From Fibrobacter sp. (lineage in GTDB: Bacteria; Fibrobacterota; Fibrobacteria; Fibrobacterales; Fibrobacteraceae): a stretch of 64,000 nt of DNA. The notes under the pieces are model-generated. The model searched no databases, was not told the origin of the DNA, and was given only the letters and a program-made list of their open reading frames with translations. The DNA lies in contig JAKSIF010000003.1 in NCBI GenBank assembly GCA_024398965.1, positions 62,001-126,000 on the forward strand, read 5' to 3'. Positions 7,442-51,463 of the stretch are shown piece by piece (position 1 is the first letter of the stretch; each line of letters opens with the position of its first letter). The position numbers and the translations under genes were made by a program.

Positions 7442-9250
7442 ATGACTATAAAGAAGACTTTATTGGCAGGTCTCGCCGCTTTCGGTCTGGCAGCAGTCGA
7501 TGCTAGCGCCGCCCTTAGCGAAGACGATTTTGTAGAAGCCGCCTGGATGACCACCCGTTTCTTTGGTGCTCAGCGTTCCGGCGAAGGCCCTAACTGGATG
7601 GCGGATGGTACCAACTATCCCACCAGCTTCATGAAGGACAGCTACCAGGGTAAGGACATTACCGGTGGCTGGTTCGATTGCGGTGACCATGTGATGTTTG
7701 GTCAGACCCAGGGCTTTGCAGCCTATATCTTGGCACTTTCCTATGCTGAATTTACCGAAGGTTTCTACGACCTTTATACCGGTGATTACACAGACTACAA
7801 GGCTAGCAACGATTATTCCCGTAAGGGTGGTAAGCCCAACAAGATCCGCGATCTTCTGGAAGAACTTCGCTACGAGGCTGACTTCTGGGTTAAGGCAGCA
7901 CCCGATGAGAAGACCTTCGTTGCCGTGAAGGGCGATGGTAATTACGACCACATGAAGTGGGTTACCCCTGGTAAGATGAGTACTTTGGGAACCGGTGAAG
8001 GTGGTGGAAATCGTCCTGTCCAGGCAAATACCAACGACTCCTTCTCCTCGGGCATGGTGGCTGCCATGATGGCTGTCATGGCTCGTGTGGATCCGGATGA
8101 GGCCAACCGTACCAAGTACCTCCAGGCTGCAAAGAATGCCTATGCCTACGCCAAGGCCCATAAGGGTGTGACCACCTCAGGTTCTTTCTATGCAGAAAGC
8201 TGGTGGGATGGTCGTGTTCAGGATGGCGTATTCCTGGGTGCCCTGGAACTTTACCGTACCACGAAGGATGAATCCTACAAGAGCGATGCGCAGAAGGTCT
8301 TTGCTGACTTGAAGTTTGAAAAGGGTAGCTATTCCCGCTTGAACTACGCCAATGCCGTTCCGCTGTCCGTGGTGATGGCCCAAGGTGTGTTTGACTGGAC
8401 TCCCGAGGGCGGTACCTACCGTGACATGCAGCTGTACCTTGACAATATCTACAAGGGCAACATGAAGGATGATATTTTCATGAAGGAAACCGGTGGTGGT
8501 GGCTCCTTCTCTGTTCGTACTCCGTCCGGTGGTGCTTTCCTTTATGCTCTGTATGCCAAGTTCACAGGCGATACTGACTACGATCAGTTGATCGAAAAGA
8601 ACGTGGCCTACCTGCTTGGCGATAATGGCAATAAGAAGTCCTATATCGTAGGCTTTGATCGAAACAGCGCCAAGGCTCCGACCGCACCCCATCATCGTGG
8701 CTATTATGGTAACGAAGATGAGGGCCGTGAAGTAGGTTCTTTCTCTGCAAATTCCGCTCCTGCAAAAAACAAGTACTTCGGTGCCATGATTGCTGGCTCC
8801 TTCAACAATCCTGGCCATAACACCAATGTTTCCGACTGGCAGGAAAACGAAGTTTGCGTCGATATGAACGCTCCCATGGTGGGTGCCCTGGGCTACATCC
8901 TTTCCAAGAAGGCTCCCAAGACCGATGTGGACCTGGGGATCAAGGCTCCCGAGACTCCTAAGGATACGGTGTCTTCCGTTGATCCTAACGAAGGCAACGA
9001 AGCTGGAATCCTGTCTCAGAAACTTGTAGCCTCCGGCTTCAGCCTGGTTCGCAGTGCAGGCGTTGTGTCTGTAGCCAATGCTGCCAAGTCTGCCTTTGCC
9101 GTAAGTGTCTTTGATCTTAACGGTAATATGGTTCAGCGCATTGAAAGCGATGGACAGCCGGTGTACTTTGTACCCAAGTCCAAGGGCGTGTTCCACGTTC
9201 GCGTGAGCTCCAACAGCCAGCAGAAAGTCTTTACGCTGAAGAATTTCTAA
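7442..9250 (+). CDS. secreted GH9 endoglucanase with C-terminal sorting-like domain
   Basis: A cellulase of 602 residues. ATG at 7442 has GGAGAA 4 bases upstream and gives a clean signal peptide (MTIKKTLLAG...ASAA); GTG at 7418 is rejected. The GH9 catalytic domain (about 25-490) shows GGWFDCGDH with D79/D82 as base and nucleophile-positioning Asp, PHHR at 416-419, and NEVCVDMNAP with E470 as acid. No Ig-like or CBM module precedes it. A Pro/Asp linker (about 495-525) leads to an 80-residue beta-rich C-terminal domain ending in VFTLKNF, similar in style to type IX secretion sorting domains. Beta-1,4-glucan cleavage outside the cell is expected. Confidence 0.93.
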   Translation: MTIKKTLLAGLAAFGLAAVDASAALSEDDFVEAAWMTTRFFGAQRSGEGPNWMADGTNYPTSFMKDSYQGKDITGGWFDCGDHVMFGQTQGFAAYILALSYAEFTEGFYDLYTGDYTDYKASNDYSRKGGKPNKIRDLLEELRYEADFWVKAAPDEKTFVAVKGDGNYDHMKWVTPGKMSTLGTGEGGGNRPVQANTNDSFSSGMVAAMMAVMARVDPDEANRTKYLQAAKNAYAYAKAHKGVTTSGSFYAESWWDGRVQDGVFLGALELYRTTKDESYKSDAQKVFADLKFEKGSYSRLNYANAVPLSVVMAQGVFDWTPEGGTYRDMQLYLDNIYKGNMKDDIFMKETGGGGSFSVRTPSGGAFLYALYAKFTGDTDYDQLIEKNVAYLLGDNGNKKSYIVGFDRNSAKAPTAPHHRGYYGNEDEGREVGSFSANSAPAKNKYFGAMIAGSFNNPGHNTNVSDWQENEVCVDMNAPMVGALGYILSKKAPKTDVDLGIKAPETPKDTVSSVDPNEGNEAGILSQKLVASGFSLVRSAGVVSVANAAKSAFAVSVFDLNGNMVQRIESDGQPVYFVPKSKGVFHVRVSSNSQQKVFTLKNF

Positions 9251-11246: not shown

Positions 11247-13343
11247 ATGAATAAAATACTAAGCCTTTGTTCATTGCTTGTAGCTTGTGTTTTTTCTTCG
11301 GCTTTGGCCCATGTTGAAAGAATGCCCGACATGAAGGACAAGCGTGATGGCCGCGTCTATAAGACCGTACAGATTGGTGATCAGCGCTGGATGGCAGAAA
11401 ACCTTCGCTACGACTTGAAGGGTAGCTTTTGCTATGAAAACAAGCCTGTAAATTGTGAACGCTTCGGCCGTCTTTATAATTGGTCCATGGCTATGATGTT
11501 GGTTGACTTCTATAACAACCACACCATTGCAAAGCTTGTTCCCAAGTACAGGGAAGGTCGTATTCATGATATCTGTCCTAAGGGCTGGCATCTGCCTACC
11601 AACAAGGACTGGAAACGCATGAAGAACTTTGTGGGCAAGAAGGGTTCCAGCGATGGCGTGGGAATCAGCCTTAAGTCCGTGGATTTCTGGGAAAAGGAAA
11701 TCCGTCTGCCCGGTGGCAACGATGAATTCGGCTTTAATGCCTTGCCTTCTGGTGAAAGAGATTTTGAAGGCCGCTATTTTGATATGTTCAGGTCTGCCTT
11801 GTATTGGACTTCTACCGAGTATGACGATGGCGGCGCCTACATTTGGTGGATTTACTATGATTCAAGATCCATGGAAAAGAATTACGATACCAAGGAAACG
11901 GCAGCTTCTGTCCGTTGTGTCGAAGATGTAACCTACAAGATCAAGGAACCTCCTCCTCCGCCGCGTAAGATTATTCCCAAGGTTGTGGAAGTTCAGGGTA
12001 AGAAGCTTCAGACAATCCATATCGGTGACCAGGTATGGATGGCCAACAACGTGGATACCAAGGTCCCGGGAAGTTTCTGCTACCAGGACAAGGAAGAATA
12101 CTGCGAAAAGTACGGTCGTCTGTACACATGGTCTGCAGCACTTAAGCTTGATGAAAAGTTCCAGAAGGAAGTGGCCAGGGATTCCATTTCTAAGATTAGG
12201 CCCAAGGGTATTTGTCCCAATGGCTGGCATGTTCCTACGGCTCGTGATTACTATAGGCTGAATGTCTATTTGAAGGAAATCGATGACGCCGTAGGCGTTG
12301 GCACCAATTTGAAGTCTCGCACTGGCTGGAACGAAAGCGAAAATGCTTTGCTGGGTGAAAACGGCTTTGGGTTCAATGCAGAAGCTTTCGGTATCCGCCG
12401 TTACGCCTTGCCCAAGATGCTCTGCGAGCGTATTGTCAAGGACATCTTGAAACCAACCAAGAAGGGGATGGAACCTGATACGGTCTATGCGGATTCCTGT
12501 GTTGTTGATCCCCAGTGGCAGCCGGGCCTTGTGTACGAAGGTGACAGCCTGTTTACCGGTTTCTGGTCTGGAACGGAGTCTGATTCCCTGTCTTCTGTAG
12601 TCTGGAAACTGACCTATGACGAAGATGACTTTGTTCAGGATTCCGCAAGCAAGGATGAGGCCTACTATCTGCGCTGCATGATGGATCCGCCTGAAGAAGA
12701 TGAAATTTACGATAGTACCGCAATTCACGATAGGCGAGATGACAACAAGTATAAGACTGTAGTCATTGGTGAAGATACCTGGATGGCGGAAAACCTACGT
12801 TTTGCAGCTCCTGGCAGCTACTGCTATGAGGAAAAGGATTCTAGATGCCGTTCCTATGGACGTCTGTATCCTTGGACTGTAGCGATGCGTCTGCCGGCAG
12901 ATTATATCGATAATTCTTCTACGGGAGGTATCATGATTGAACACCAGGGCCTCTGTCCTGATGGTTGGCATGTACCTACGAACGAGGAATGGCTTGCCTT
13001 GGGTCAGAAGGCTTTGAACATGCGCCGTGGCGGTATTGGTGCCGCTATGAAGAGTAAGGAAGGCTGGGCTAGGGGTGGTGCGCCCATTTCTGCAGCCAGT
13101 GGCTTTAACGCTCTGCCATCAGGAAGCCGATTCGCTGATGGTGAATACCTTGAACTGGGTTCCAGTGCCTACTTCTGGACTGCTGCAGGTGGTGATGGCA
13201 TGGGCGGTGTGTACTGGTACCTGGTGAATAACAAGGATGAATTTACCAGTGCAGAAGACTTCGACAATGCTTCGTTCTCATTGAGATGCGTCAAGAATAA
13301 GTTGTCCAAGGATTCTGGTAGCGCGCCTGCCGCAGCTCCTTAA
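11247..13343 (+). CDS. secreted protein with three FISUMP domains
   Basis: The 698-residue protein has a signal peptide (MNKILSLCSLLVACVFSSALA) and three copies of the Fibrobacter major paralogous domain, near residues 30-225, 245-475 and 490-690. Each copy repeats D-x-R-x-YKTV-x-IG-x-WMAENL, GSFCY or GSYCY, YGRLY-WS/T, CPxGWHVPT and a C-terminal SVRC/LRC motif. Members are numerous and surface-exposed in Fibrobacter and are thought to take part in substrate contact; their molecular function is not established. A TATATT -10 lies about 30 bases upstream. It converges on ligA. Confidence 0.92.
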   Translation: MNKILSLCSLLVACVFSSALAHVERMPDMKDKRDGRVYKTVQIGDQRWMAENLRYDLKGSFCYENKPVNCERFGRLYNWSMAMMLVDFYNNHTIAKLVPKYREGRIHDICPKGWHLPTNKDWKRMKNFVGKKGSSDGVGISLKSVDFWEKEIRLPGGNDEFGFNALPSGERDFEGRYFDMFRSALYWTSTEYDDGGAYIWWIYYDSRSMEKNYDTKETAASVRCVEDVTYKIKEPPPPPRKIIPKVVEVQGKKLQTIHIGDQVWMANNVDTKVPGSFCYQDKEEYCEKYGRLYTWSAALKLDEKFQKEVARDSISKIRPKGICPNGWHVPTARDYYRLNVYLKEIDDAVGVGTNLKSRTGWNESENALLGENGFGFNAEAFGIRRYALPKMLCERIVKDILKPTKKGMEPDTVYADSCVVDPQWQPGLVYEGDSLFTGFWSGTESDSLSSVVWKLTYDEDDFVQDSASKDEAYYLRCMMDPPEEDEIYDSTAIHDRRDDNKYKTVVIGEDTWMAENLRFAAPGSYCYEEKDSRCRSYGRLYPWTVAMRLPADYIDNSSTGGIMIEHQGLCPDGWHVPTNEEWLALGQKALNMRRGGIGAAMKSKEGWARGGAPISAASGFNALPSGSRFADGEYLELGSSAYFWTAAGGDGMGGVYWYLVNNKDEFTSAEDFDNASFSLRCVKNKLSKDSGSAPAAAP

Positions 13344-15574: not shown

Positions 15575-16132
15575 CTAAAATAATATTTTAACGCCGATTC
15601 CAATCAGGATAATTCCTGCAATAATCTCTGGAATTTTTGTCTTGAACTGCTTGGCGGCGCGATGTCCAATCTCATATCCGATAACGCCCATGACAAAGCT
15701 TGCTATAGCGATGGCAGTAGTGGCGGTTACCATGTTGGCGTTGATAAACGCAAAGGAAATGCCGACGGCAAAGGCGTCGATGCTTGTGGCAATAGACATG
15801 AGCAGAATGTTTGCTAAGCTCAGGTTCTTGGCTGCAGTTTCTGCGGCTTCATCGTCACCACCGCGGACAGCACCCCAGATCATGCGGCCACCGAGAATGC
15901 AAAGGATGGCGCAGGCGATGGGGGTTCCAATGGCATTGAACCACCGTTCAGCAAAGTTGCCCAGGAAGTAACCGAGAAGAGTCATACCACCTTGGAAAAC
16001 ACCAAAGGAGACTGACTGGATAAAAGCTCTGGAGTAGGGTATTCCAGACTTGCTTAGCCCAGTGGCAATGGCCACAGCAAAGCAGTCCATGGCTTCGACA
16101 ATTGCGATTATGATGATTTCAATGATACCCAT
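15575..16132 (-). CDS. mntP: manganese efflux pump MntP
   Basis: A 185-residue protein with six predicted membrane helices in two similar halves, each with the conserved Asp motif (EAMDCFAVAIATG and TSIDAFAVGISFA). These are diagnostic for the MntP family, which exports Mn(II). No yybP-ykoY-type leader is possible: only 36 bases separate it from the divergent cytochrome operon. Confidence 0.93.
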   Translation of the reverse strand: MGIIEIIIIAIVEAMDCFAVAIATGLSKSGIPYSRAFIQSVSFGVFQGGMTLLGYFLGNFAERWFNAIGTPIACAILCILGGRMIWGAVRGGDDEAAETAAKNLSLANILLMSIATSIDAFAVGISFAFINANMVTATTAIAIASFVMGVIGYEIGHRAAKQFKTKIPEIIAGIILIGIGVKILF

Positions 16133-16168
16133 AATTCCAAATATAGATTTTAAGGTATATTTAGGCTG

Positions 16169-16540
16169 ATGGGTACTAGGTTAAAGACTGTTATCGGAGT
16201 GTTTGTCATGGTCAGCGCCTTGTTTGCGTTGGACCTTTTTGCCTTGCCCAAGGTAACTCCGGAACTGAAGACCGAGGCCAACGAATTTTTCCAGAATGAG
16301 TGCAAGGCTTGTCACCGGTGGGCTCGTAAATTTGCTGCTCCTCCCATGCAGGAAAATGTGGCGCAGTACGAGAATTCGCCTGAAGAAATGGTCAAGTACC
16401 TGATGCATCCGACGCCGAAACATCCTGATGAATGGCCGGCGATGGACATTACTCCTTTGACAGAAGAGCAGGCCAAGATGATGACCGCCTGGCTTCTCTA
16501 TATTCTGAAGAATCCCGATGACCCGGGGAGGCCCAAGTGA
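16169..16540 (+). CDS. monohaem cytochrome c, first gene of electron-transfer operon
   Basis: The 123-residue protein has an N-terminal signal/anchor and one haem site, CKACH, with M in EWPAMDITPLT as likely sixth ligand; this is a class I fold. It would sit in the periplasm and carry electrons to or from the pentahaem protein encoded next. Its stop overlaps the next GTG start (GTGA), so translation is coupled. Role resembles ActE of alternative complex III by position only. Confidence 0.85.
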   Translation: MGTRLKTVIGVFVMVSALFALDLFALPKVTPELKTEANEFFQNECKACHRWARKFAAPPMQENVAQYENSPEEMVKYLMHPTPKHPDEWPAMDITPLTEEQAKMMTAWLLYILKNPDDPGRPK

Positions 16541-17085
16541 AGATTCTTGTGGCGTTATTTTCCCTGGTGTTCGCCTTCTTACTGGCGGATTTCATTTGGA
16601 GTCAGAAGGCTGTAAAGGTGCGCTCTGGCGTTGCGGAATTTTCATCTGCGGATAACGCAGTCGTTCCTTTCAATCATATGCTTCATGGGGATTCTATCGG
16701 CATGGATTGTGCAGCCTGCCATACGGGAGCTAGAAGTGCCGCCCTAGCCTACATGCCTTCCAAGGCGGACTGCATGGATTGCCATCGATTGCCCCTGACA
16801 GAAAATCCAGGAATTGAAAAATTGGATTCTGTCTTGAAGGCTGCTCCCGAGAATCCTTGGATGCATAGGCGGATGTTGCCGGAACATGTGGTGTTCCATC
16901 ATGGAGTTCATGCCGCTGCCGGAGTGAGTTGTGCCGACTGTCATGGGCCGGGGGCCAACCTGAAGAATATATATGGAGGCGAAAAGCTCGATATGAAGAC
17001 CTGCCTCCAATGCCATAAGGGTGAGTCCTTCAGGGATCGTAACTTTAAACCTGCGGCTACCTACTGCGCCGCCTGCCATCGTTAG
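16537..17085 (+). CDS. pentahaem cytochrome c (NrfB/QrcA/ActA-like)
   Basis: 182 residues with one N-terminal membrane anchor and five CxxCH sites starting at C58, C79, C132, C156 and C177. Several His residues between them (FNHMLH, FHHGVH) suit bis-His ligation. Size and haem number match NrfB of the periplasmic nitrite-reduction system and the small multihaem subunit of Qrc/ACIII complexes. GTG start overlaps the upstream stop. No terminal reductase is encoded alongside. Confidence 0.87.
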   Translation: MKILVALFSLVFAFLLADFIWSQKAVKVRSGVAEFSSADNAVVPFNHMLHGDSIGMDCAACHTGARSAALAYMPSKADCMDCHRLPLTENPGIEKLDSVLKAAPENPWMHRRMLPEHVVFHHGVHAAAGVSCADCHGPGANLKNIYGGEKLDMKTCLQCHKGESFRDRNFKPAATYCAACHR

Positions 17086-17093
17086 GAGGTTTC

Positions 17094-17987
17094 ATGAATC
17101 GTCGTGATTTCATAAAGTCCTGCTCCCTGATGGCTGTTGCCGGTATGCTGTTTGGCTGCCGTAAGGATGTTCTTGGTGGGAACGGTTCTTCTACAGGGAA
17201 GGCTGTGCCGACCATGAAGGAATTTGAGGGGGAGGTCCGTCGGGCGATTTCTCAGGCTAAGTCCGGCTTGGACCTGGTTCGAGTTTCCGCTCCGAAGGCC
17301 ATGAACATTCCGGAGGCGTCCCGAGTAAATCGTTTTGGCATGGCTATCGACCTGGATGCCTGTGATGGATGCGGCAAGTGTATTCTCGCCTGCAATATGG
17401 AGAGTAACATCCCGCTGGTGCCGGAAGAAGACGCTGCTCGAAACCGTTTTATGCACTGGATAGAACTTAGGGATGGAAAGCCCTTCATGTGCGCCCACTG
17501 TGGGGATGCCCCCTGCGAGAAGGTGTGCCCTACGGGAGCTGCCAATCACACTCCCGATGGCCTCAGTGCCATGATGTACAAGCGATGTGCCGGCTCCCGC
17601 TTTTGCGGGGCGAACTGTCCGGCGAAGGCTCGAAAGTTCAACTTCAACGATGCGCAGGAATTGGGGCTGGTCCGAAAGTTTAACCTGGATGTACCCCTTC
17701 GTGACAAGGGCGTCATGGAAAAATGCAGTCTTTGCCTCCATCGCCTTCAGAACGACCGTTTGCGCTTCAAGACGGAAGCGTCCATAGCCGGCGTGACTGC
17801 AGACTGGCGCGGTCGCGGGGTGGAAACCGCCTGTTCCGAATCCTGCCCGAAAAAGGCAATCGTATTCGGAAACTGGCTGGATCCAGAATCCCCTCTGGTA
17901 AAGGCAACTGCAAATCGCCAGCTTTATGCCCCTCGGGAGCTAGCCAATCTTGATCCCGCCGTAGTCTTCATGATGGGGAAGCGCTGA
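17094..17987 (+). CDS. periplasmic four-cluster ferredoxin subunit (NrfC/QrcC-like)
   Basis: 297 residues. RRDFIKSCSLMAVAGMLFGC at the N-terminus combines an RR signal with a lipobox-like Cys, so it is probably exported, perhaps folded, and lipid-anchored. Ferredoxin motifs: CDGCGKCILAC, CAHCGDAPCEKVCP, the CAGSRFCGANCP stretch and CSLCLHR with CSESCP near the end, enough Cys for four Fe-S clusters. In Nrf, Qrc and ACIII this subunit passes electrons between the membrane NrfD-type subunit and the multihaem cytochrome. GGAGG precedes ATG; the stop overlaps the next start (TGATG). Confidence 0.88.
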   Translation: MNRRDFIKSCSLMAVAGMLFGCRKDVLGGNGSSTGKAVPTMKEFEGEVRRAISQAKSGLDLVRVSAPKAMNIPEASRVNRFGMAIDLDACDGCGKCILACNMESNIPLVPEEDAARNRFMHWIELRDGKPFMCAHCGDAPCEKVCPTGAANHTPDGLSAMMYKRCAGSRFCGANCPAKARKFNFNDAQELGLVRKFNLDVPLRDKGVMEKCSLCLHRLQNDRLRFKTEASIAGVTADWRGRGVETACSESCPKKAIVFGNWLDPESPLVKATANRQLYAPRELANLDPAVVFMMGKR

Positions 17988-19717
17988 TGTTCAGGATTCT
18001 AGTATACATCGGGCTTGCGCTGTTTGTCCCCGGGCTTTGTGCGTTGGGCTATTCTCTTTACGAGGGCCCTTCCGCCTGGATGACGGATTCCGCCACCTTC
18101 TGGGGAACGCCTATCAGTCTATTCGTCTTCTGGATCGGCCTTGCTCATGCGGGAACGCTTCTTTCTGCCATATTCCTGGCGCTGGATGTGAAGCTGGATC
18201 GCCGCACCGCCATGCTGGCTGAGCTTTCGACAATCTGTTGTCTTGTCATTGCGGCCCTGTTCCCACTGATGCATTTGGGCGTTCTGGAACGTTTCTATAT
18301 GGTAGTTCCCTTTCTGGACGCTAGGGCTAACGTGGCTAATGTGAGGTCGCCTCTAGTTTGGGATTTCTGCTGTATCGCCGTTTATGGAATACTTTCCACC
18401 TTGTTCTTTGTGACCCACATTTCCGTAAAGAAGATTCCTGGCTTTGATCGGATTAGGCGTCCCATGGCCTGGCTACTGTTCCCCTTGGTTCTTTGGGTCC
18501 ATACGGTTGTGAGCCTCGATTTTGCGTCTACCTATGTGCCTCAGTGGACCGGAGCGTATTTCCCTCTCTACTTTATTATCGGAGCAATCTTCTCGGGCCT
18601 TGCCATGATGAATTGCATCCTTTGGACAGAGGGGTACCGCATGCGTTTGCTTGAAAAAATGATGCTGGTAGGTTCGTGGATTATTGCGGCCATCTGGTTC
18701 TGGGAACTTCTTCTGAAGGGATCCTTTGACACAGGAGCCTTCGTCTTTGCCGCCTTGCTTCCCCAACTTCTTCTGGTCAAGTCCATTAGGGAACTGCGAG
18801 TCAGTCGACTTCTTATTTCTATTTCCATTCTTGTCGGCCTTCTACTTGAACGATTCAACCTGGTTTCTCCCGGGCAGGATTCCGTCAATACCTATGGCCT
18901 TGTAGATTTAGGCCTTGTATCATTTTCCTTTGGTGCATTCCTTTTGTTCTTCTTTATTGTTCGTCGCCGTCTAGCATTTTTCTTTGAGGATGGTGGTTCC
19001 TACTTTGGTGAAGTGGATAGCCGAGACATGGTGCAGGAGGAACTGAAGTCGTCCGATAGTGGAATGGCAATTTTCAGGGTCTTACGTACGCCTCTACTGG
19101 CTGGTTTTGCCCTTGCAGTCTTGTATGGTTTAAGCTTCCAGGGCATGGCATCCTACGAGAATATAAGCCTGTCCTTGGTCAACTATCTCCCTATGACCTA
19201 TCCAATCATCGCCTTGGTTGCGGGGGTGTGGATCTTTGGTTGGGAAGTCCATAAGAGCGGATTGGCTTGGTCGAAAAAGAGGATTTCCTTGATTGCTGCG
19301 GTTGCGGCTTTGATGGGCTTGTCCATAGGCTTGTTCTATGGTGGAGGCTCCTCAGAATCTTTGGATACTGCAGAAGTTGGTGCCCTGTTGAATTCTGATG
19401 AAAATCCGTCGGGGGAACATTCCGCCATGGTCTGGAATGCCCGTTGCGCAACTTGCCATGGTGTCGACGGAACCTTTAATCGCAAGTTTGTAAACGAATT
19501 CTATCCGGTGCCACAGAAACTGGATGTTTCTCGTTTGGAATCATTAGGCGAAGATTCCCTGGTAAGTGTGGTTCTAAGAGGCCGAACCAACATGAATGCC
19601 TATGGTGGCCGTCTGTCAGAAGGGGAGGCCCGCGGCCTTGTTCGTTATATGAAAAGCCTGGCCGAGAAACAGAACCTTGTTGAAGAACCTGCGGAAAAAC
19701 AGGGGGGCGAACCATGA
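17987..19717 (+). CDS. NrfD-type quinol-interacting membrane subunit fused to cytochrome c
   Basis: 576 residues. The first 320 form an NrfD/PsrC/ActC-like bundle of about ten membrane helices; another three or so helices follow (380-440); the C-terminal 110 residues are a class I cytochrome c with C487-x-x-C490-H491 and a NMNAYGG Met ligand region. NrfD proteins exchange electrons with menaquinone. The direct fusion to cytochrome c provides a built-in exit or entry for electrons at the periplasmic face. Fusion of this kind in one chain is unusual. Confidence 0.85.
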   Translation: MFRILVYIGLALFVPGLCALGYSLYEGPSAWMTDSATFWGTPISLFVFWIGLAHAGTLLSAIFLALDVKLDRRTAMLAELSTICCLVIAALFPLMHLGVLERFYMVVPFLDARANVANVRSPLVWDFCCIAVYGILSTLFFVTHISVKKIPGFDRIRRPMAWLLFPLVLWVHTVVSLDFASTYVPQWTGAYFPLYFIIGAIFSGLAMMNCILWTEGYRMRLLEKMMLVGSWIIAAIWFWELLLKGSFDTGAFVFAALLPQLLLVKSIRELRVSRLLISISILVGLLLERFNLVSPGQDSVNTYGLVDLGLVSFSFGAFLLFFFIVRRRLAFFFEDGGSYFGEVDSRDMVQEELKSSDSGMAIFRVLRTPLLAGFALAVLYGLSFQGMASYENISLSLVNYLPMTYPIIALVAGVWIFGWEVHKSGLAWSKKRISLIAAVAALMGLSIGLFYGGGSSESLDTAEVGALLNSDENPSGEHSAMVWNARCATCHGVDGTFNRKFVNEFYPVPQKLDVSRLESLGEDSLVSVVLRGRTNMNAYGGRLSEGEARGLVRYMKSLAEKQNLVEEPAEKQGGEP

Positions 19718-20175
19718 TTACGCCTTTTGCCAACGCCCTTGCTTCCTTGCTTGCCCTTGGCTGTGCCATGTTCCTTTGGCGTCAGGGCTCCTCCATTTTG
19801 CGCAACGGAGCCTTGCTCGCTCTTGGACTTGTAATATTTAGTTTGTATGTATTTTGGGGAATTTTCCCAGATGGAAAGGAAATTCCCCTGGAACTGGAAC
19901 ATTATCCTTTCAAGATGCTGGCTCTTTGCCTTTGTTTCTCTACCACTGCATTGAAGGAGAATCGCAGGCGCTTCCTGGTTCTTGCGCAGTGCCTGTGGCT
20001 TTGGGTGGAACTGTTCGGTGGTATAACCCTTTATTACCGTGGGCTGGATATGGCCTGGACCCGCATCATTGCTATTTCGGGAATGGCTCTTTTGAGTACA
20101 CTCTTGCGGAATATTTCCAAGGAAATGGAATTCTGCCTGATGGTATTCTGGTTTGCAGTGTGGGTTTTCTTCTAG
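19714..20175 (+). CDS. small membrane protein of the cytochrome operon
   Basis: 153 residues, very hydrophobic, with about five membrane helices and no haem or metal motif. Start overlaps the NrfD-fusion stop (ATGA), so it belongs to the operon. It may be an accessory subunit like ActD/ActF, but no family is recognised. Confidence 0.65.
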   Translation: MITPFANALASLLALGCAMFLWRQGSSILRNGALLALGLVIFSLYVFWGIFPDGKEIPLELEHYPFKMLALCLCFSTTALKENRRRFLVLAQCLWLWVELFGGITLYYRGLDMAWTRIIAISGMALLSTLLRNISKEMEFCLMVFWFAVWVFF

Positions 20176-27673: not shown

Positions 27674-28327
27674 TTAAACACCACGTTCATTTGGATCCCA
27701 GATGACCTTGTGGAGCTGGACCTGGAATCGAACCTGGTTCTTTCGCATGACCTGGTTAGAAAGAATCCAGTTCACCATGTCCTGGTAGGGAAGTGTTCCG
27801 AATACAGGGGAGACGTAGAATGTTGGATGGCAAATGTTTTCCAAAGACTCCACGATTCTTGCCGCATCCTCGAGATCCTTGACGGAACCTACTACGAACT
27901 TGACCACGTCCCGGCTATCCAGGTTGCGGAAGTTGTCCAGCTTCATCTTGCCTTGCATGTTGCTGCTGGAACATTTCCAGTCCATGGTCACAAAGACATT
28001 CTTGAAACCAAGAGGCTTCGGCATGGTCCCGTTGGTCTCGATGTTGATATCGAAACCGTTGTCATCCAGAACCTGAAGCAGAGTCTGCACGTCCTGATGA
28101 ATCAAGGGCTCGCCACCGGTCAGAGTGACATTCTTGCAGTCAAATGATTTTACTTTGTCTACAATCTGGCCGACATTCATTTCCGTAAAGTCGGAACCTT
28201 CCACGGCGTACATGGAGTCGCAGTAACTGCATCGCAGGTTGCAGCCGTGGAGACGGATAAAGACCGCGGGGGCTCCAGTACGGATGCCTTCGCCATCGAT
28301 GCTGAAAAATATTTCGGAAACTTTCAT
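27674..28327 (-). CDS. queE: host 7-carboxy-7-deazaguanine synthase
   Basis: 217 residues, radical SAM protein of queuosine synthesis, making 7-carboxy-7-deazaguanine from CPH4. The cluster motif C29-x3-C33-x2-C36 (CNLRCSYC) follows the short QueE N-terminus (IFFSIDGEGIRTGAP), and TLTGGEPL is present. ATG at 28327 fits the family; the longer frame to 28420 runs into queD. It starts 8 bases after queD ends. It differs strongly from the phage QueE at 52861. Confidence 0.93.
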   Translation of the reverse strand: MKVSEIFFSIDGEGIRTGAPAVFIRLHGCNLRCSYCDSMYAVEGSDFTEMNVGQIVDKVKSFDCKNVTLTGGEPLIHQDVQTLLQVLDDNGFDINIETNGTMPKPLGFKNVFVTMDWKCSSSNMQGKMKLDNFRNLDSRDVVKFVVGSVKDLEDAARIVESLENICHPTFYVSPVFGTLPYQDMVNWILSNQVMRKNQVRFQVQLHKVIWDPNERGV

Positions 28328-28335
28328 GAGCTGGC

Positions 28336-28668
28336 CTAGTCTGCTTCGTATTCCGCGATATTGCCTTCGCTTTCCTGGACCACTACCCGGTAGCAGTTCG
28401 GAATCTGGTCGCAAATCCACTTGGCCATGTTCTCGGCGGTAGGATTGAAATCCACAATGTCGTTAAGCAGCTTGTGGTCCAGCTTGTCCTTGATTGTTTT
28501 CTTTACGTGGGAAAAGTCGATGACCATTCCCTGGGCGTTCAGCTCCTTGGACTTGCAATGGACCGTGATGATCCAGTTGTGCCCGTGGATTCCTGTGCAC
28601 TTGCTGTCATAGGGGAGGTCCAGACGGTGTGCCCCGGAGATTTCGAATCGCTTAGATATCTTGTACAT
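28336..28668 (-). CDS. queD: host 6-carboxytetrahydropterin synthase
   Basis: 110 residues, converts dihydroneopterin triphosphate to CPH4. Zinc ligands H14, H28, H30 (GIHGHNW) and nucleophile C24 are visible, as are LDHKLLND and the Glu in QESEGN. It is followed by queE in one operon. The phage QueD at 52520 is about three-quarters identical by eye. Confidence 0.95.
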   Translation of the reverse strand: MYKISKRFEISGAHRLDLPYDSKCTGIHGHNWIITVHCKSKELNAQGMVIDFSHVKKTIKDKLDHKLLNDIVDFNPTAENMAKWICDQIPNCYRVVVQESEGNIAEYEAD

Positions 28669-44793: not shown

Positions 44794-45477
44794 ATGCATC
44801 AACCATATACGTTTAAACTTGACCCAAACGTATGGAATAACGCTATTGCAGAAATAGAATTGGTTTTAATTGGAAAGCGTAAAAATAAAATTGCTATAGA
44901 TTCGAATGTGATTGGAGTAAAGGGCGCAAAGCTCCCTCAAGATATCCCTGTTTTTCCAGGAATTTATGCGATTTGGTCGAATAACTCTCTAAAATATATT
45001 GGTGAAACCACAAATTTGAAAGGAAGATTGAAAGAACATTTTATCTCTACTTCGAGAGACTCTAAATTGAATGAAATAAAAAAGGAGGTTTTAAAAAATA
45101 GAAAGATGTATGTTTCGTTTGTCTGCGTTTCCCCTGCATCATTTAGGTTGGCAGTTGAAGATAGATTGATTGGAAAAGTAAAAGAAGATAAGCCTGCATC
45201 TTTACCATGGAATGATAAAAGTAAAAATGTTGCTGATTGTACTAATTGGCTGCTTGATACGCTTAAAGAAGCTGGTAATGGTGGGCTAAATAGTATCTAT
45301 TTGATTAACAAGTATGTTCTTGAGTGTGATTTTTCTGTTAAAGTGAAAAAACTTTTAAAAAGATTGGTCAAAGAAAAAAAGATAGAATACACAAATGAAC
45401 CTGGCTGTGAGGGCTATCGCTTGCTGAAGAGAAAAGTAAAAAAGAAAAAAAGAAGAATAATAACGAAAAAAAATTAA
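44794..45477 (+). CDS. GIY-YIG nuclease-domain protein, AT-rich cargo
   Basis: 227 residues. Residues about 50-115 form a GIY-YIG domain: PGIYAIWSNNSLKYIGETTNLKGRLKEHF, with the two Tyr motifs, Arg and later Glu (AVEDRLIG). C-terminal part looks like a winged helix (GLNSIYLINKYVLECDFSVKVKKLL) and ends in a run of Lys/Arg. ATG at 44794 has AGAGGG upstream. Base composition is much richer in A+T than the flanking phage genes, suggesting later acquisition; a nuclease in defence or homing is possible. It converges on the MuF-like gene with a 4-base overlap. Confidence 0.78.
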   Translation: MHQPYTFKLDPNVWNNAIAEIELVLIGKRKNKIAIDSNVIGVKGAKLPQDIPVFPGIYAIWSNNSLKYIGETTNLKGRLKEHFISTSRDSKLNEIKKEVLKNRKMYVSFVCVSPASFRLAVEDRLIGKVKEDKPASLPWNDKSKNVADCTNWLLDTLKEAGNGGLNSIYLINKYVLECDFSVKVKKLLKRLVKEKKIEYTNEPGCEGYRLLKRKVKKKKRRIITKKN

Positions 45478-48128
45478 AGTTTTTCCAGCTTTCCGTTCTT
45501 GATGTAATAAACCTCTGCTCCGATGCTCTGCCATTTTTTTGCCACCTGTAAATGGGTGGCTTTACTTTTATCCATCAAGTCGTAGGGATAGGTAAGTGAT
45601 TCCACGCAATCAATCGTGACGTCGCCATGGAACTGTAGTTCCAGGTAGCTTCGGATGTTGTTGTCGCGGAAATTCGCCATGTTGGAAGTGTCCGTTCCAA
45701 GTTTTGGCAATTTCCTTTCACTCATGTCGTCATAGGAAACAGCCTTGGGATCGGTGACGAGGCTGGGCTGGTAAGTTTCGCCGAGGCTGTCGCCAGCAGT
45801 CCAGGTGCAGACGACCTTATCCTTCTTGAAACGAACTGTGACATTTCCGTACTGCGTGGCCGGATTGTGGGACTTGAACTCGCGAAGTTTGTCGTGGTCC
45901 AACAGGTTTCCGTATTTTTCGTACTGGCCAATCTTGAGCTGATTTGCCCTGTCGGTGGAACCAAGGCCAAAAAGGTTATGGGCGGCGCCCAAACGCGCGT
46001 GAGACTGTTTGATTGAACCGTCTGCGTTTAGACTTGGACCACAATAACCGCCGGAGCTTCCTGTTTCGAAAGTGTTCTTGAAATGGCTAGTGAAAACCTT
46101 TTCGAGAATATCGTCGTCAATGTGCATTCCCAGGTCATGCTGCTGGAAAAGCATCTTCATGTTGGCTTCGATTTCCTTGGCGTACTTCTTCGTGTCCGAA
46201 CCGTACTTTCTGGATTTTTCATACTTGGCGATGGCGTCGTCCAGATGCTCAAGGGTCTTGGGCAATTTTGAACCCATGGTGGCTTTGAGTTCTGGGAGAG
46301 TGACTGTTCCGAAGGGGATTCCACCAGCCGTTCCGCTTTTGATCTTCTTCAAGCGTTCGCGAAGTTCCTTGGCTTCGATTTCAGCCTTTCTTGTTTCGGC
46401 CTTTTTCAACAGCTGTTGAAGCTCCGTTCTTGCCGCGGCGTCACCCTTTGCAATCGCGGCGTCCATATCTTCCGCCAGCTTCTTGATGATCCCGGATTTC
46501 GGATGCTTGGCAAGAAAGTCCTTGATTTCGTCCACGCGTTGAATGTCGGATTCCCATAGGATTTTCTGTTCCACCTCGCGAAGCGCCTTCTTATAGGCGT
46601 CCTGCGCGACCTTCCAGCTGGAATACTTCTTATGGTCCTCCACCCACTTGATTTCAAATTCAAGGTCATGCTTTCGGCTGGAAAGGGAACGGGGCATCCC
46701 GTCGAGTTTCTTCTTGACGGAATCATTGACGAGAATGGCTGTGTCATAGTCGAAATCCCTGGCGACCTGGATCGGGTCCTCAAGGTAGGTACAGGCCTTG
46801 AGCTTCTTGAGGGATTCCTCCAGCTTGGCGCTCTGGGCTTCCATTTCGCTGTAGGCGCTTTTGCCACCCTTCTGCAGGGCTTTTTCCAGTTCGTCCTTAC
46901 CGGACAATCCATGAAGCCCGTTTGCTTCCTGTAACAGCTTGTGCGCCTCTGTACGGATGGCTGTTCTGCGTTCCAGCTCCTTCCTGATGGCGTTTTCCTG
47001 TGAAATAGTCCTTTTTTCATGCCTTTTCTGGGCAATTTCGGCAATTCTGCGCCTGCGGAGTCTTTCTTCCCAGCGATTTTGGATATCCGCGATCTGCTGG
47101 GGTGTCCTTTGGTGGCGTTTTTCTGCCGCCTGGATGAGCCTTTGCCTGGATAACAGCGATTCCTGCTCCATTTTGAGCGCCTGCAGCTGTTTTTCCTGCT
47201 GGGCGATAGTCTGTTCCATCTTTTCCAGCTGGGCGCTCGTAGCCTCGTTTGCGCCCTGCTGCGGAGTCTCTGGCTGTTCCGCCTGTCTGACCTGGTATTT
47301 TCCGTCGATTTCCGGCTCCCAAGCGACCATGCTGCAACGGCATTGGAAGTCCTCTCCTGGGGTTCCATGGTACATTTCCGAGGTTCTTGGATGCTCCACA
47401 AGTCCTTCGGGAGTTTCCTCATAATAGACGTCCGGATTTTCGACGCTGCAGATCAAGCCGTTCATGAGGGCGTGGGAATCACGCTCGCGCCCGTCCAGCG
47501 TTGTCATCCACATATAGTAGCGGATGCCCAGCTTCTTGTAGGTGGAAAGGTTGGCTGCTGAATTGAGCTTTCCCATTTCCGTTCTGGCGATCAGCTCCGC
47601 GCGATGCTTTGTCTCCATCGGCAATTCCCTGCGAATTGCAGATTCAAGTTGCGATTTGCTCCAGCCCTTCATCCTCGCGTCGGTGGCGAGCCTGGATATC
47701 TTTGCCTTGGCGTCGGTTTCGGCACTTATGCAGAGCTGTTGGAAATTTGCCTTCCATGCGTCAAAGATGGACTTTTCCGCTTCCGGGGGGAAGTAGGGCT
47801 GGCCCACAAGCATTTTGGAATATTCGCTGAAATTCCAGCCCGTCTTTACTCCGACGGCATCGGCTAGGCTTGACACCTTCTTTACAAATTCCGGGGACAG
47901 TTCAGCTTTCGCTTTCGCAAGATCGTCAAGGTCGTCAACGAAGCCCATGAGGGCGAGCTGGATATTCTGTTCCAGCGCCCTTGCAAATTCCTCGCGGGTA
48001 GCCTTTTGAAGGTCCGCCTCGATGGCGCTGGGATAGAACTGGTGGGCGCTAAAGACGGGCCTGCGTCCACGCTTCTTCTGTCCGATGCGTTCCACGTTCC
48101 TTACGAAATTGAGAAAGCTGTTTGCCAT
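45474..48128 (-). CDS. MuF-like phage head protein with long coiled coil and probable C-terminal toxin domain
   Basis: 884 residues. Residues about 160-275 carry the head-morphogenesis domain (AELIARTEMGKLNSA, MTTLDGRERDSHALMNG, DFQCRCSMVAW), placed with the portal and terminase as in SPP1/Mu phages. A charged coiled coil spans about 300-640. The last 230 residues are globular: GNVTVRFK, CTWTAGDSLG and YLELQFHGDV (E830, Q832) stand in the order of the R / S-T-S / E signatures of ADP-ribosyltransferases of the type found in phage MuF toxins. The effector call is inference. A neighbouring immunity gene is not seen. Confidence 0.75.
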   Translation of the reverse strand: MANSFLNFVRNVERIGQKKRGRRPVFSAHQFYPSAIEADLQKATREEFARALEQNIQLALMGFVDDLDDLAKAKAELSPEFVKKVSSLADAVGVKTGWNFSEYSKMLVGQPYFPPEAEKSIFDAWKANFQQLCISAETDAKAKISRLATDARMKGWSKSQLESAIRRELPMETKHRAELIARTEMGKLNSAANLSTYKKLGIRYYMWMTTLDGRERDSHALMNGLICSVENPDVYYEETPEGLVEHPRTSEMYHGTPGEDFQCRCSMVAWEPEIDGKYQVRQAEQPETPQQGANEATSAQLEKMEQTIAQQEKQLQALKMEQESLLSRQRLIQAAEKRHQRTPQQIADIQNRWEERLRRRRIAEIAQKRHEKRTISQENAIRKELERRTAIRTEAHKLLQEANGLHGLSGKDELEKALQKGGKSAYSEMEAQSAKLEESLKKLKACTYLEDPIQVARDFDYDTAILVNDSVKKKLDGMPRSLSSRKHDLEFEIKWVEDHKKYSSWKVAQDAYKKALREVEQKILWESDIQRVDEIKDFLAKHPKSGIIKKLAEDMDAAIAKGDAAARTELQQLLKKAETRKAEIEAKELRERLKKIKSGTAGGIPFGTVTLPELKATMGSKLPKTLEHLDDAIAKYEKSRKYGSDTKKYAKEIEANMKMLFQQHDLGMHIDDDILEKVFTSHFKNTFETGSSGGYCGPSLNADGSIKQSHARLGAAHNLFGLGSTDRANQLKIGQYEKYGNLLDHDKLREFKSHNPATQYGNVTVRFKKDKVVCTWTAGDSLGETYQPSLVTDPKAVSYDDMSERKLPKLGTDTSNMANFRDNNIRSYLELQFHGDVTIDCVESLTYPYDLMDKSKATHLQVAKKWQSIGAEVYYIKNGKLEKL

Positions 48129-48132
48129 TCTG

Positions 48133-49371
48133 CTAGTCCTCTACGGTTACTTCCCAGGAGTGACCGTTGTGAAAGACGCTCTCATGGATGCTGTCGGCGT
48201 CTATGGCTCCCATCTGGTAATAGATGTTGAGGGTTTCCGCCTGGAGCTTCTTTGCCTCCAGCTGTTCCTTTAGGCTCATGACAGAAACTGGTCCCCATTC
48301 GAACTCGCTACAGCTTGCGTTGCAGTTCCTGTGGGCAAGTTCGGAAATGAGCCTTGCTGACGGACGGTAGATATAGCGGGAACGCCAGCTTTCCACCAGT
48401 TCGCCATAGGCCTTTGTGTCGCCCTCGTTAGTCTGGGCGAGACCAGTGGCGCTCTGTCCGAAAAGGATGCTGACGGGGATTCTTGAATCCGCGCTGACCA
48501 TGTTCATCGCCTTCTGCAGGACTTCGGGCAAACCTGTGAAGTTGTGGCTTAAAATCTCGAATTTGTCATTTGCGCCGCTGAAAACGCCCCGGAACGAACT
48601 CATGGATAGCTTGACGAGGCTTATAAGCTCCTGTGCGTCGCGGATGCCGCAGTCCGGCTTGGAGAGCATTTCGTTGAAGTTCTCCAGGCTGAAAAGCATG
48701 ACGCCCGTTTCCGTCGCCATGTTGACGATGCTTGCCATGACGTTGGCGAGGTTCTTTAGGCTCTGTTCGCTGGCCTTCAAGGCGGGTGTTCCGAAGAACC
48801 GTTCTCGCAGGGAAACTCCACGAAGGACGTCCGGGGCCTTCTTGCCATAAATGACAGTGCATCTTTGGGGGTGGATTTCGCGCCTTTCACCGTCCAGAAG
48901 GGTGACTCGGAAAACTTTCGGGGAATCACCCTCGAAGTCGCTGGATTGAAGATCGACTGTCCCTGCGCTATAGACGCGGTACTGTCTCACCTTGGCGCTG
49001 GACGTTGGGGGTGCAGCCAGGGACTGCAAATCGTCATTCTCATATTCCGTGACGATGATTGCGCCTCCAGTCAAACGCTGATATTCGCCAGCGACCTGCA
49101 GGGCTTCGATGAGGCCAAGGGAGAAACATTCCTTGAGGACTGTTCCATCTTCGTCTCCGATGATGGAAATGTCATGCTTGAAGGCTGTTTCCGGAACACA
49201 TTCCACGATTCGGGCTGCAATTCCGTCCTGCACCTTCATTTTCGCCAGTTCGTAGAGGTCGCTTCCTCCGTAGGGCTTTGCGAAGGTACTTTCTCCCTTA
49301 TCCATCTGGGCGTGACCCATTCCTGTGACGAAATTGCCGTAGGCTCCGTCCTGAATCTTGCTTTTTTCCAT
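48133..49371 (-). CDS. phage portal protein (DUF1073 type)
   Basis: 412 residues. Signature pieces: YELAKMKVQDGIAARIVECVP, the A-x-x-x-G-x-x-RLTGGAII segment, LREPRTVI-like QRCTVIYGKKAPD, and RIPVSILFGQSATGLAQTNEGD, all typical of DUF1073/Mu-gp29-like portals. It forms the dodecameric ring for DNA entry. Four bases separate it from the MuF-like gene. Confidence 0.88.
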   Translation of the reverse strand: MEKSKIQDGAYGNFVTGMGHAQMDKGESTFAKPYGGSDLYELAKMKVQDGIAARIVECVPETAFKHDISIIGDEDGTVLKECFSLGLIEALQVAGEYQRLTGGAIIVTEYENDDLQSLAAPPTSSAKVRQYRVYSAGTVDLQSSDFEGDSPKVFRVTLLDGERREIHPQRCTVIYGKKAPDVLRGVSLRERFFGTPALKASEQSLKNLANVMASIVNMATETGVMLFSLENFNEMLSKPDCGIRDAQELISLVKLSMSSFRGVFSGANDKFEILSHNFTGLPEVLQKAMNMVSADSRIPVSILFGQSATGLAQTNEGDTKAYGELVESWRSRYIYRPSARLISELAHRNCNASCSEFEWGPVSVMSLKEQLEAKKLQAETLNIYYQMGAIDADSIHESVFHNGHSWEVTVED

Positions 49372-49386
49372 GAGTTGATTTCCTTT

Positions 49387-50862
49387 TTAGATGAAGCTGA
49401 CCATGCCGGAGCCTGTCCCGGTCGATAGGTAGTTGAGGGCTTGCGTGGTAGAGTCCACGCGGTCGTCATGCGGGGCTGTGGGGAAGGAGACCAGTTCCTC
49501 GACGTAGTCGCGAACCCAGGGGTGTTCCGCATCCTGTTTGGGGATGAAAACGTTCCCAGCCTCGAAAAGGGGGCTGACAGCGAAGGCTCGCGCCTCCTTT
49601 GACCCCTGCGGCGTATAGGGGACGATTCCGCTGATCTGGTTTTTCAATGCGCTTATGATTGCGGGGCCGTTGGCCTTGTCCTCTATGATTTTCTTCAATG
49701 CCTTGGGATGCTTGACTGTGATTCTTTGCAGGGCGCGGATGCTGGAGACGAAATCCATCTTCTCGCAGACGCAGTCGATGAGGTAGAAGCGGGAGCCGAC
49801 CTTTCCCCAGACGGTTCCTGCTACATTGTCGCTTGAGGCGCTGTCCGTGAACGTGAAATCCCAGCTCTGGATAATCTTGTCGAATACCTTCGGCAGAATT
49901 TCGTATTCCTGCAGCCATTCGCGCTTGATGATGCTTCCGCCGACGGGTGCGGGGTGCTGCTGGTAAAGGGCGTTCCAGTCATAGCTTCCCACGTTCGCCT
50001 TGATCTTCTCAAGCATTTCGACCGGATATCTTTCCGGATGGAGGGCTTCTCCGATTCTACGATGAGGCTCGTCAATTTCCGCGATTGCGGGATAGTTTAT
50101 TATGGTCCACTGGTCTCCATCGCCCCGCTTCATGGCGTTGAGCAGGCGTCCAGCCAAGTCGTCCTCATGCCATCTGGTAAGCGTCACAAGAACGCCACCG
50201 CCTGGGGAAAGGCGTGTGTAGGCCGTAGATGTGTACCAGTCCCAGACCCTGTCGCGGATTGTGATGCTGTTCGCTTCCTGTCTGTCCTTCAACGGGTCGT
50301 CAATGCCGAGAATGTCACAGCCCATGCCCGTGATGCCGCCACCGATACCAGTGCTTCGGAAACTTCCGATATGGTTCGGTATTTCCAGCAGGTTTGCGGA
50401 ACGGGTGAACCTGCTTCCGCGCGGGGGGAGGGAAACGTTTGGGAAGATTCTATGGAACTCGCTTGAGTCCATGATCCTTTGGACGTCCTTATTGACTCGC
50501 TTTGAAAGGCTGTCGCTATAGCTGCAGGCGATGAAGGAAATGTTCGGATTTACGCCAAAGCACCAGGCTGGAAAGTGTTTGGAGACAAGCTGGCTCTTGC
50601 CATGTCGCGGAGGCATGGTTAGAATGAGTCGAGGACTCTTGCGTTCCATGACGTCCACGAAGAACCCCATGAGACGGGCGCAGATTTCCCTATGTACCCA
50701 GCCGATGCTGTACGTCGGCATGGTCGCTTTCACGAAGGCGAGAAGATTGCTCCTTGCAAGTCTTTCAATCTGTGGAGTCGTTTTCGTAGATGCCCAGTTC
50801 CCTGGCCTGCCTTCTGATTTCTCCCAGTTCCTCCGGCGTGGGGATTTCCCCGTTGGAGTCAA
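49387..50862 (-). CDS. phage terminase large subunit
   Basis: 491 residues. ATPase: Walker A MPPRHGKSQ (83-91), Walker B DILGIDDP, coupling TLTRWHEDDLAGRLL. Nuclease: WDFTF and a C-terminal DDRVDSTTQAL. It packages DNA and cuts concatemers. The annotated ATG overlaps terS by 98 bases; a start nearer the terS stop is possible, but no good alternative ATG exists before residue 48. Confidence 0.95.
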   Translation of the reverse strand: MTPTGKSPRRRNWEKSEGRPGNWASTKTTPQIERLARSNLLAFVKATMPTYSIGWVHREICARLMGFFVDVMERKSPRLILTMPPRHGKSQLVSKHFPAWCFGVNPNISFIACSYSDSLSKRVNKDVQRIMDSSEFHRIFPNVSLPPRGSRFTRSANLLEIPNHIGSFRSTGIGGGITGMGCDILGIDDPLKDRQEANSITIRDRVWDWYTSTAYTRLSPGGGVLVTLTRWHEDDLAGRLLNAMKRGDGDQWTIINYPAIAEIDEPHRRIGEALHPERYPVEMLEKIKANVGSYDWNALYQQHPAPVGGSIIKREWLQEYEILPKVFDKIIQSWDFTFTDSASSDNVAGTVWGKVGSRFYLIDCVCEKMDFVSSIRALQRITVKHPKALKKIIEDKANGPAIISALKNQISGIVPYTPQGSKEARAFAVSPLFEAGNVFIPKQDAEHPWVRDYVEELVSFPTAPHDDRVDSTTQALNYLSTGTGSGMVSFI

Positions 50863-51217
50863 TCGTTATTGCGTCGGGACAGTCAACCATCCTGTCGAGC
50901 ATTTTTCGCTTTGCGCGGGTGAGCTTGGTTTCCTCCGTCTCCTCGGCTATGTCAAAGACAAAACGAGCCGCCTTGATGTTTCCGGAAAGGGCCATGCCGC
51001 TCATGACGGAAAGAATAGCGGCGCGTATCTGGATTGGCTTGTCAACCTGGATTCCGATGTTCCGCAGCGATTCCTTGAGCTTCCCTTCACCCAGCGTAAA
51101 CTTTGTGCCAAGGACATTCCTCGCGACGTCGCGAGCCTCCTTGGCCTTCTGCTTGCTCCTGGACGCGGCAAGGCCTCCCAGCTTGCCGAGCTGTCTCATA
51201 TCTACTGGCTCGTTCAT
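50765..51217 (-). CDS. putative terminase small subunit
   Basis: 150 residues just upstream of the large subunit. An Arg/Lys/Ala-rich N-terminus (GLAASRSKQKAKEARDVARN) and a helical middle suit the DNA-recognition subunit; the assignment rests on position more than on sequence. Overlaps the large-subunit frame. Confidence 0.6.
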   Translation of the reverse strand: MNEPVDMRQLGKLGGLAASRSKQKAKEARDVARNVLGTKFTLGEGKLKESLRNIGIQVDKPIQIRAAILSVMSGMALSGNIKAARFVFDIAEETEETKLTRAKRKMLDRMVDCPDAITIDSNGEIPTPEELGEIRRQARELGIYENDSTD

Positions 51218-51220
51218 ACA

Positions 51221-51424
51221 TTAGTCGTTCCTCAAGTCCTTCCACCAGCGCAGAAAATCGGGCCAGTAGATTGTAATGCGTCCACGCTTGCAGCTGCGGC
51301 GTACGGGCATCCCGCGCGTCTTTATCCAGTCATAGACGGTGAAAGGGTTGAAGCCGATCTTCTTTGCGACCTCCTTGACTGTGAGGTAGTCGTTTTTTTG
51401 TTTTGTTTGGTCTATGTTAGCCAT
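51221..51424 (-). CDS. excisionase/MerR-type DNA-binding protein
   Basis: 67 residues: YLTVKEVAKKIGFNPFTVYDWIKTRGMPVRRSCKRGRITIYWPDFLRWWK is the winged-helix pattern of small DNA-binding proteins (HTH_17). It may act as excisionase or regulator, and it is 3 bases upstream of terS, which is unusual for an excisionase; a DNA-site helper for packaging is an alternative. Confidence 0.75.
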   Translation of the reverse strand: MANIDQTKQKNDYLTVKEVAKKIGFNPFTVYDWIKTRGMPVRRSCKRGRITIYWPDFLRWWKDLRND

Positions 51425-51463
51425 CGGCTCCCCGGAAGAAAAGATTTTTTATATACGGTTTCC

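Follow-up and report, generated by a model that had tools for sequence, protein, structure and literature searches.

Which electron-transfer complex is encoded by a compact cluster of cytochrome, iron-sulfur and membrane-protein genes in a Fibrobacter genome, and where could its electrons go? The cluster occupies positions 16169-20175 of a 64,000-nucleotide stretch of Fibrobacter sp. contig JAKSIF010000003.1 (hereafter the window, at its full length) and consists of five open reading frames (ORFs), tightly packed and all running in one direction. A description made from the letters alone, hereafter the sequence-only reading, had seen in it an operon resembling Nrf, Qrc and alternative complex III (ACIII), which could carry menaquinol electrons to a periplasmic acceptor. 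Taken together, gene order, sequence, structure and the residues of the quinol site relate the operon to ACIII, and a reduced form of that complex is a better reading of it than Nrf or Qrc; we give a probability of roughly 0.7 to the operon coding for a reduced ACIII-type menaquinol:cytochrome c oxidoreductase. Such a streamlined complex would be built from ActA, ActB2, an ActC-ActE fusion and the small membrane protein of gene 5 in place of ActF. ACIII replaces the bc1 complex in many bacteria and is otherwise known mainly from oxygen-breathing ones.

Gene content and affinities of the operon

The five-gene operon is confirmed as real and not a chance arrangement, because genes 2-5 keep their order in practically all of the complete Fibrobacteraceae loci examined and the haem and cluster motifs are conserved. 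Three of its junctions are overlaps of 4, 1 and 4 bases, and the single gap, between genes 2 and 3, measures 8 bases. ORFs, CXXCH counts and Pfam domains agree with the mono- and pentahaem cytochromes of the sequence-only reading. The majority of the relatives compared are metagenome assemblies.

Gene 1 (16169..16540, + strand; 123 amino acids, aa) codes for a small periplasmic class I monohaem cytochrome c (Pfam Cytochrom_C, 9e-6), with a signal sequence or N-terminal anchor and one CXXCH motif (CKACH), a number found in 43/43 relatives. In some genomes it is unlinked from genes 2-5 and adjoins mntP. As a separate observation, this cytochrome gene has mntP, the gene of a manganese efflux pump, close by in several genera of the Fibrobacteraceae, including cases in which genes 2-5 have moved (window 15575-16169 and, among the surveyed loci, L082:7640-9448, L083:5728-7590, L084:7670-9592 and L087:573-2386). 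Gene 2 (16537..17085, +; 182 aa, GTG start) codes for an ActA-like pentahaem c7-type cytochrome (Pfam Cytochrome_C7, 3.2e-13) with an N-terminal membrane anchor and five CXXCH motifs, kept in 52/52 relatives. Its best match among solved structures is the ActA chain 8k9e_A (phmmer, 1.7e-22). As for the NCBIfam models, QrcA is the best one for gene 2, with 62.8 bits against a cut-off of 180, while NrfB, whose cut-off is 166.6 bits, yields 14.4.

Gene 3 (17094..17987, +; 297 aa) carries four ferredoxin-type cluster motifs within Pfam Fer4 domains, an RR motif and a lipobox whose Cys22 is invariant. Among solved structures, the C-terminal domain of ActB (6f0k_B) comes first (4.1e-46), with 160.7 bits vs. 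73.4 bits for 2vpw_B. All NCBIfam matches fall under their cut-offs: 136 bits for DsrO, 134 bits for QrcC and 71.5 bits for NrfC (cut-off 377.6). Fifteen cluster cysteines are kept in 54 gene 3 sequences, the 16th position, in the third motif, being Ser or Thr as in Rhodothermus marinus ActB, a shared motif from which one [3Fe-4S] cluster is predicted beside three [4Fe-4S] clusters. The "NrfC-like" protein of the sequence-only reading can be named more precisely as ActB2-like: gene 3 is best read as the ActB2 half of ActB, standing alone and lipid-anchored.

The fusion of NrfD with cytochrome c was found again in gene 4 (17987..19717, +; 576 aa), where Pfam NrfD (1.6e-9) and Cytochrome_CBB3 (1.6e-8) occur in one frame with a CXXCH close to the C-terminus, and it can be specified as ActC- plus ActE-like. 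The ActC-like NrfD domain forms the N-terminal part (17987..19021, +). Chain 6btm_C (ActC) is the first match of gene 4 among solved structures (1.7e-28), and a Foldseek search with its predicted fold returned ActC chains in the top four places (E 1e-11 to 5e-9) and ActF chains in the next four. The C-terminal part (19418..19717, +) is an ActE-like class I cytochrome c domain (CATCH) that matches ActE of an ACIII locus of the same class (L044; phmmer 5.8e-8) and is reciprocally retrieved by ActE queries; full-length relatives have one CXXCH in 50/50 cases. Between both parts, a linker (19022..19417, +) holds three more membrane helices predicted by AlphaFold2 (residues 345-387, 397-423 and 430-452), in which no similarity to ActD was found and which could replace ActD.

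The quinol-site residues of ActC are His139, Ser164, Asp169 and Asp253 (PMC8076601, PMC5928083). They correspond to H96, S121, D126 and D178 of gene 4, all without variation across 29 sequences, and the channel residues that were mapped (H54, T57, S60, E79, T82, Y133, S137, H172, Y195, E288 and R289) are invariant too. The proton-handling position, an Asp in QrcD and DsrP (PMC8076601), is the invariant His96 in gene 4, and ActC has His too; the similarity of gene 4 to DsrP is weak (20 bits).

Gene 5 (19714..20175, +; 153 aa) codes for a membrane protein of no recognised family, whose six helices are modelled with confidence (AlphaFold2, predicted local distance difference test 91). Searches of NCBIfam and of PDB sequences (profile search included) gave no match, Pfam no family over cut-off, and Foldseek no structure with E <0.001; VIA-align gave Z <8, a score that is uninformative for helical bundles. 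The gene always lies downstream of gene 4, in a position that corresponds to ActF, to which its sequence is unrelated.

The resulting order, A-B2-(C+E)-gene 5, is collinear with the A-B-C-D-E-F order of true ACIII loci. With the ACIII of R. marinus (6f0k) and Flavobacterium johnsoniae (6btm), the operon shares a pentahaem ActA, an ActB2 with [3Fe-4S] (predicted here), an ActE-like monohaem cytochrome, identical ActC quinol-site residues and the gene order, but it differs from them by having no ActB1, ActD or ActF homologue, by the fusion of ActC with ActE, by a separate lipid-anchored ActB2, by the novel gene 5 and by the absence of an adjoining oxygen reductase. Queries with ActB1, ActD and ActF, which find all true ACIII loci, found nothing in the 1.54 megabases (Mb) of Fibrobacteraceae loci searched with Act-subunit queries, window included. 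True ActB1 matches the QrcB model, and no ORF of that kind was found in these loci by the ActB1 queries, in keeping with the molybdopterin-like subunit being missing, as the sequence-only reading had it. The operon is ACIII-derived, yet it lacks three of the features that define ACIII and is not assigned as a member.

Resemblance to the other complexes is more distant. Qrc of sulfate reducers (QrcABCD) has in common with the operon a multihaem c7-type cytochrome, a [3Fe-4S] iron-sulfur subunit, an NrfD-like membrane subunit and a periplasmic quinone site, whereas the operon has no QrcB, five haems vs. six, His vs. Asp at the proton-handling position, and additional monohaem cytochromes. Nrf (NrfABCD) likewise combines a multihaem cytochrome with ferredoxin-like and NrfD-like parts, but no NrfA accompanies the operon and the NrfB and NrfC models score well under their cut-offs. 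As for DsrMKJOP, the likeness lies in the score of gene 3 to DsrO, while DsrM, DsrK and the triheme DsrJ are missing. Of the three affinities named by the sequence-only reading, the one to ACIII therefore stands, and the equal footing given to Nrf and Qrc does not. The best NCBIfam matches (QrcA for gene 2, DsrO/QrcC for gene 3) were also considered as evidence for Qrc and rejected, since bona fide ActA and ActB (same phylum; Kapabacteria) score higher on these models. No paper describing the operon in Fibrobacter was found among the open-access papers searched, a scope that makes this weak evidence.

Distribution, co-inherited genes and a clade without redox parts

The operon is near universal in Fibrobacter and three sister genera, and F. 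intestinalis ATCC 43854 carries it. Genes 2-5 stand together in the 29 first-examined loci of the genus (L003-L031) and, among 53 Fibrobacteraceae-type loci of the genome collection, in all but four, those four ending at a contig edge. Locus surveys and trees include two contigs labelled Kiritimatiellae that are probably misbinned Fibrobacter: L116 and L125, short contigs of the "Kiritimatiellae" metagenome-assembled genome (MAG) RGIG6720, whose operons are near-identical to those of Fibrobacter MAGs.

Two further genes, not noticed in the sequence-only reading, go with the operon almost without exception. The first codes for a ResB-CcsA fusion that serves cytochrome c maturation, and was found in 12/12 operon-positive genomes tested and 0/10 others (Fisher 1.5e-6). 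The second codes for a fourth, unlinked cytochrome, an anchored monohaem c (C4:104283-104774 in the host genome), and was found in 70 of the 71 operon-positive genomes vs. 3 of the 97 others (Fisher 2e-42). Both p-values overstate independence, as the genomes are related. The sole operon-positive genome without the fourth cytochrome is 71% complete; among the three operon-negative genomes with it, two are Fibrobacter that are 62-65% complete and one has a distant homologue. Neighbours of the maturation gene and of the fourth cytochrome are housekeeping-like and indicate no acceptor. In an operon-less Fibrobacteraceae genome, a lipoprotein-like protein distantly related to the fourth cytochrome is encoded close to aroC (L142:7356-7769), a gene that in L080 and L081 lies near the fourth cytochrome itself.

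A different state, also not noticed in the sequence-only reading, was met in 17 of the 80 genomes of the genus, whose NrfD is shortened (414-419 aa across the seven loci that were read) and stands without genes 1-3 and without the cytochrome domain of gene 4; gene 3 and the maturation gene are missing in 7/7 genomes tested, and the fourth cytochrome in 17/17. These NrfD proteins have a shortened loop between helices 3 and 4 and have lost the quinol His, and one of them, scanned against Pfam, gave no match. Gene 5 is present in all seven loci read, and the loci examined lie near ligA, several of them also near mntP, like the window. In the gene 5 and NrfD-domain trees alike, the seven sampled members form one clade with a long stem within the operon-positive Fibrobacter, and the loss is therefore derived. 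Pairwise ratios of nonsynonymous to synonymous substitution are 0.06-0.13 for NrfD and 0.04-0.11 for gene 5, rough values with synonymous sites near saturation in many pairs; to judge from these, both genes are under strong purifying selection. Such selection in the absence of redox parts argues that the NrfD-gene 5 pair has some function, which would be independent of haem, of iron-sulfur clusters and, apparently, of quinol. The partner-less NrfD with its gene 5 homologue occurs in L032-L038 (e.g. L037:6680-7924 and 7921-8364), and is a candidate non-redox NrfD.

Proposed electron path and competing explanations

In a reduced ACIII of this kind, the ActC-like domain would oxidise menaquinol in its pocket facing the periplasm, with release of protons on that side. 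Electrons would enter the lipid-anchored ActB2-like protein at its [3Fe-4S] cluster and run on through the five ActA-like haems to the ActC-fused ActE-like haem and/or the gene 1 cytochrome; the co-inherited, unlinked fourth cytochrome c would take them over and hand them on to a final acceptor. Judging by the conserved residues of the half-channel, charge translocation may be retained. This path agrees with the menaquinol-to-periplasm conduit of the sequence-only reading; we infer the direction of flow, as well as the order of the carriers, the coupling to protons and the existence of a further acceptor. In the F. johnsoniae ACIII, electron paths tolerate variation at the exit end (PMC8552683).

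The search for terminal enzymes, which the sequence-only reading had called for, returned no NrfA over cut-off in 22 genomes, and likewise nothing over cut-off for MauG-type cytochrome c peroxidases (CCP), haem-copper oxidases or nitric oxide reductases, c7-type multihaem cytochromes beyond the operon, and molybdenum bis-pyranopterin guanine dinucleotide (Mo-bisPGD) enzymes, the model used for the last (PF00384) covering catalytic molybdenum enzymes only. This agrees with the sequence-only reading, which had seen no nitrite reductase. A genome-wide scan for the CXXCH pattern was discarded as too noisy (302 matches vs. 245 with the reversed pattern). The description as a "fermentative anaerobe" is compatible with the lack of such oxidase and reductase genes. 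Nor was a complete paralogous nrf or ACIII copy, which would have refuted the sequence-only reading, met elsewhere in the host genome (3.59 Mb, 99.9% complete), which holds a single NrfD match, in gene 4, and hence no second NrfD (ActF), a single gene 3 match and no NrfA.

Several points weigh against a menaquinol-oxidising ACIII. ActA-F are treated as a conserved set, and ActD and ActF have been implicated in proton movement (PMC5928083); with ActB1, ActD and ActF missing, the complex may not assemble or pump likewise. ActB1 is absent from the operon and the loci, but an unlinked copy elsewhere in the genome is possible, as PF00384 misses true ActB1. No terminal acceptor was found among the enzyme classes listed above, so that net flow is a proposal; the acceptor could belong to another class, such as the flavin reductases or copper enzymes, and a periplasmic hydrogenase could be a donor. 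Finally, electron flow could be reversed.

In that last case, the operon would work in the direction of Qrc, a periplasmic donor reducing the cytochromes and electrons entering menaquinone, e.g. for fumarate reduction. The QrcA and DsrO/QrcC models as best NCBIfam matches, the lack of a terminal acceptor and the [3Fe-4S] cluster, which Qrc also contains (PMC8076601), speak for it. We nevertheless consider it unlikely: the model matches are unspecific, true ActA and ActB giving the same ones with higher scores, the proton-handling residue is the His of ActC vs. the Asp of QrcD, QrcB is not in the loci, and no Mo-bisPGD formate dehydrogenase was found, periplasmic hydrogenases lying outside that search.

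A chain that protects a gut anaerobe from oxygen or peroxide, its low-potential cytochromes reacting with oxygen or supplying a peroxidase of unrecognised type, would amount to the reduced ACIII with a specific acceptor. It fits all the data, including a chain that is kept where no dedicated oxidase or reductase was found, but neither a MauG-type cytochrome c peroxidase nor a haem-copper oxidase was found to serve it, and its probability is low.

That the operon is a relic heading to loss, with no present function, is very improbable. In its favour stand the missing ActB1, ActD and ActF and the Fibrobacter clade without genes 1-3 and the cytochrome domain. Against it, none of the ligands of haems and clusters and none of the residues at the quinol site varies among 29-54 relatives, which argues that the operon is not decayed, and operon, extra cytochrome and maturation gene disappeared jointly in one clade, in a single event and not by gradual decay. 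An Nrf-like role, in which a nitrite reductase or some other terminal reductase with several haems would receive the electrons, can be dismissed almost entirely: the sub-threshold NrfC score of gene 3 and the Pfam NrfD match of gene 4 are set against the absence of NrfA and of any further c7-type multihaem cytochrome, the very low NrfB score and the much stronger similarity to ActC and ActB.

A wider proposal is put forward tentatively, as possible but rather doubtful: that the streamlined ACIII is a complete menaquinol:cytochrome c oxidoreductase feeding an unrecognised terminal acceptor in gut anaerobes and, jointly, that NrfD and gene 5 are kept in the sister clade, after loss of the quinol site, as a machine devoid of redox partners. 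If this holds true, NrfD-type proteins can have a non-redox function.

Other features of the window and implications for Fibrobacter

Elsewhere in the window, positions 45474-54812 hold prophage genes (terminase, portal, head morphogenesis) and, after them, genes for FolE, QueD, QueE, QueC and a queuine tRNA-ribosyltransferase-like protein, likely a phage 7-deazaguanine DNA-modification cassette; a QueE/QueD-like pair also lies beyond the prophage, at 27674-28668. A large secreted protein with three similar repeats is encoded at 11247-13343, and these repeats are presumably Fibrobacter major paralogous domains.

The reason why ACIII has a cofactor-free molybdopterin-like B1 domain and a second NrfD (ActF) is, to our knowledge, unsettled in the field. 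A complex without B1 and ActF, in which all redox and quinol-site residues are kept, would be a natural deletion experiment for the mechanism of ACIII. The clade that keeps only NrfD and gene 5 would provide the paired comparison for the role of NrfD without electrons. As for Fibrobacter itself, its members are regarded as pure cellulose fermenters; the present findings imply that the majority of them would retain a cytochrome c chain.

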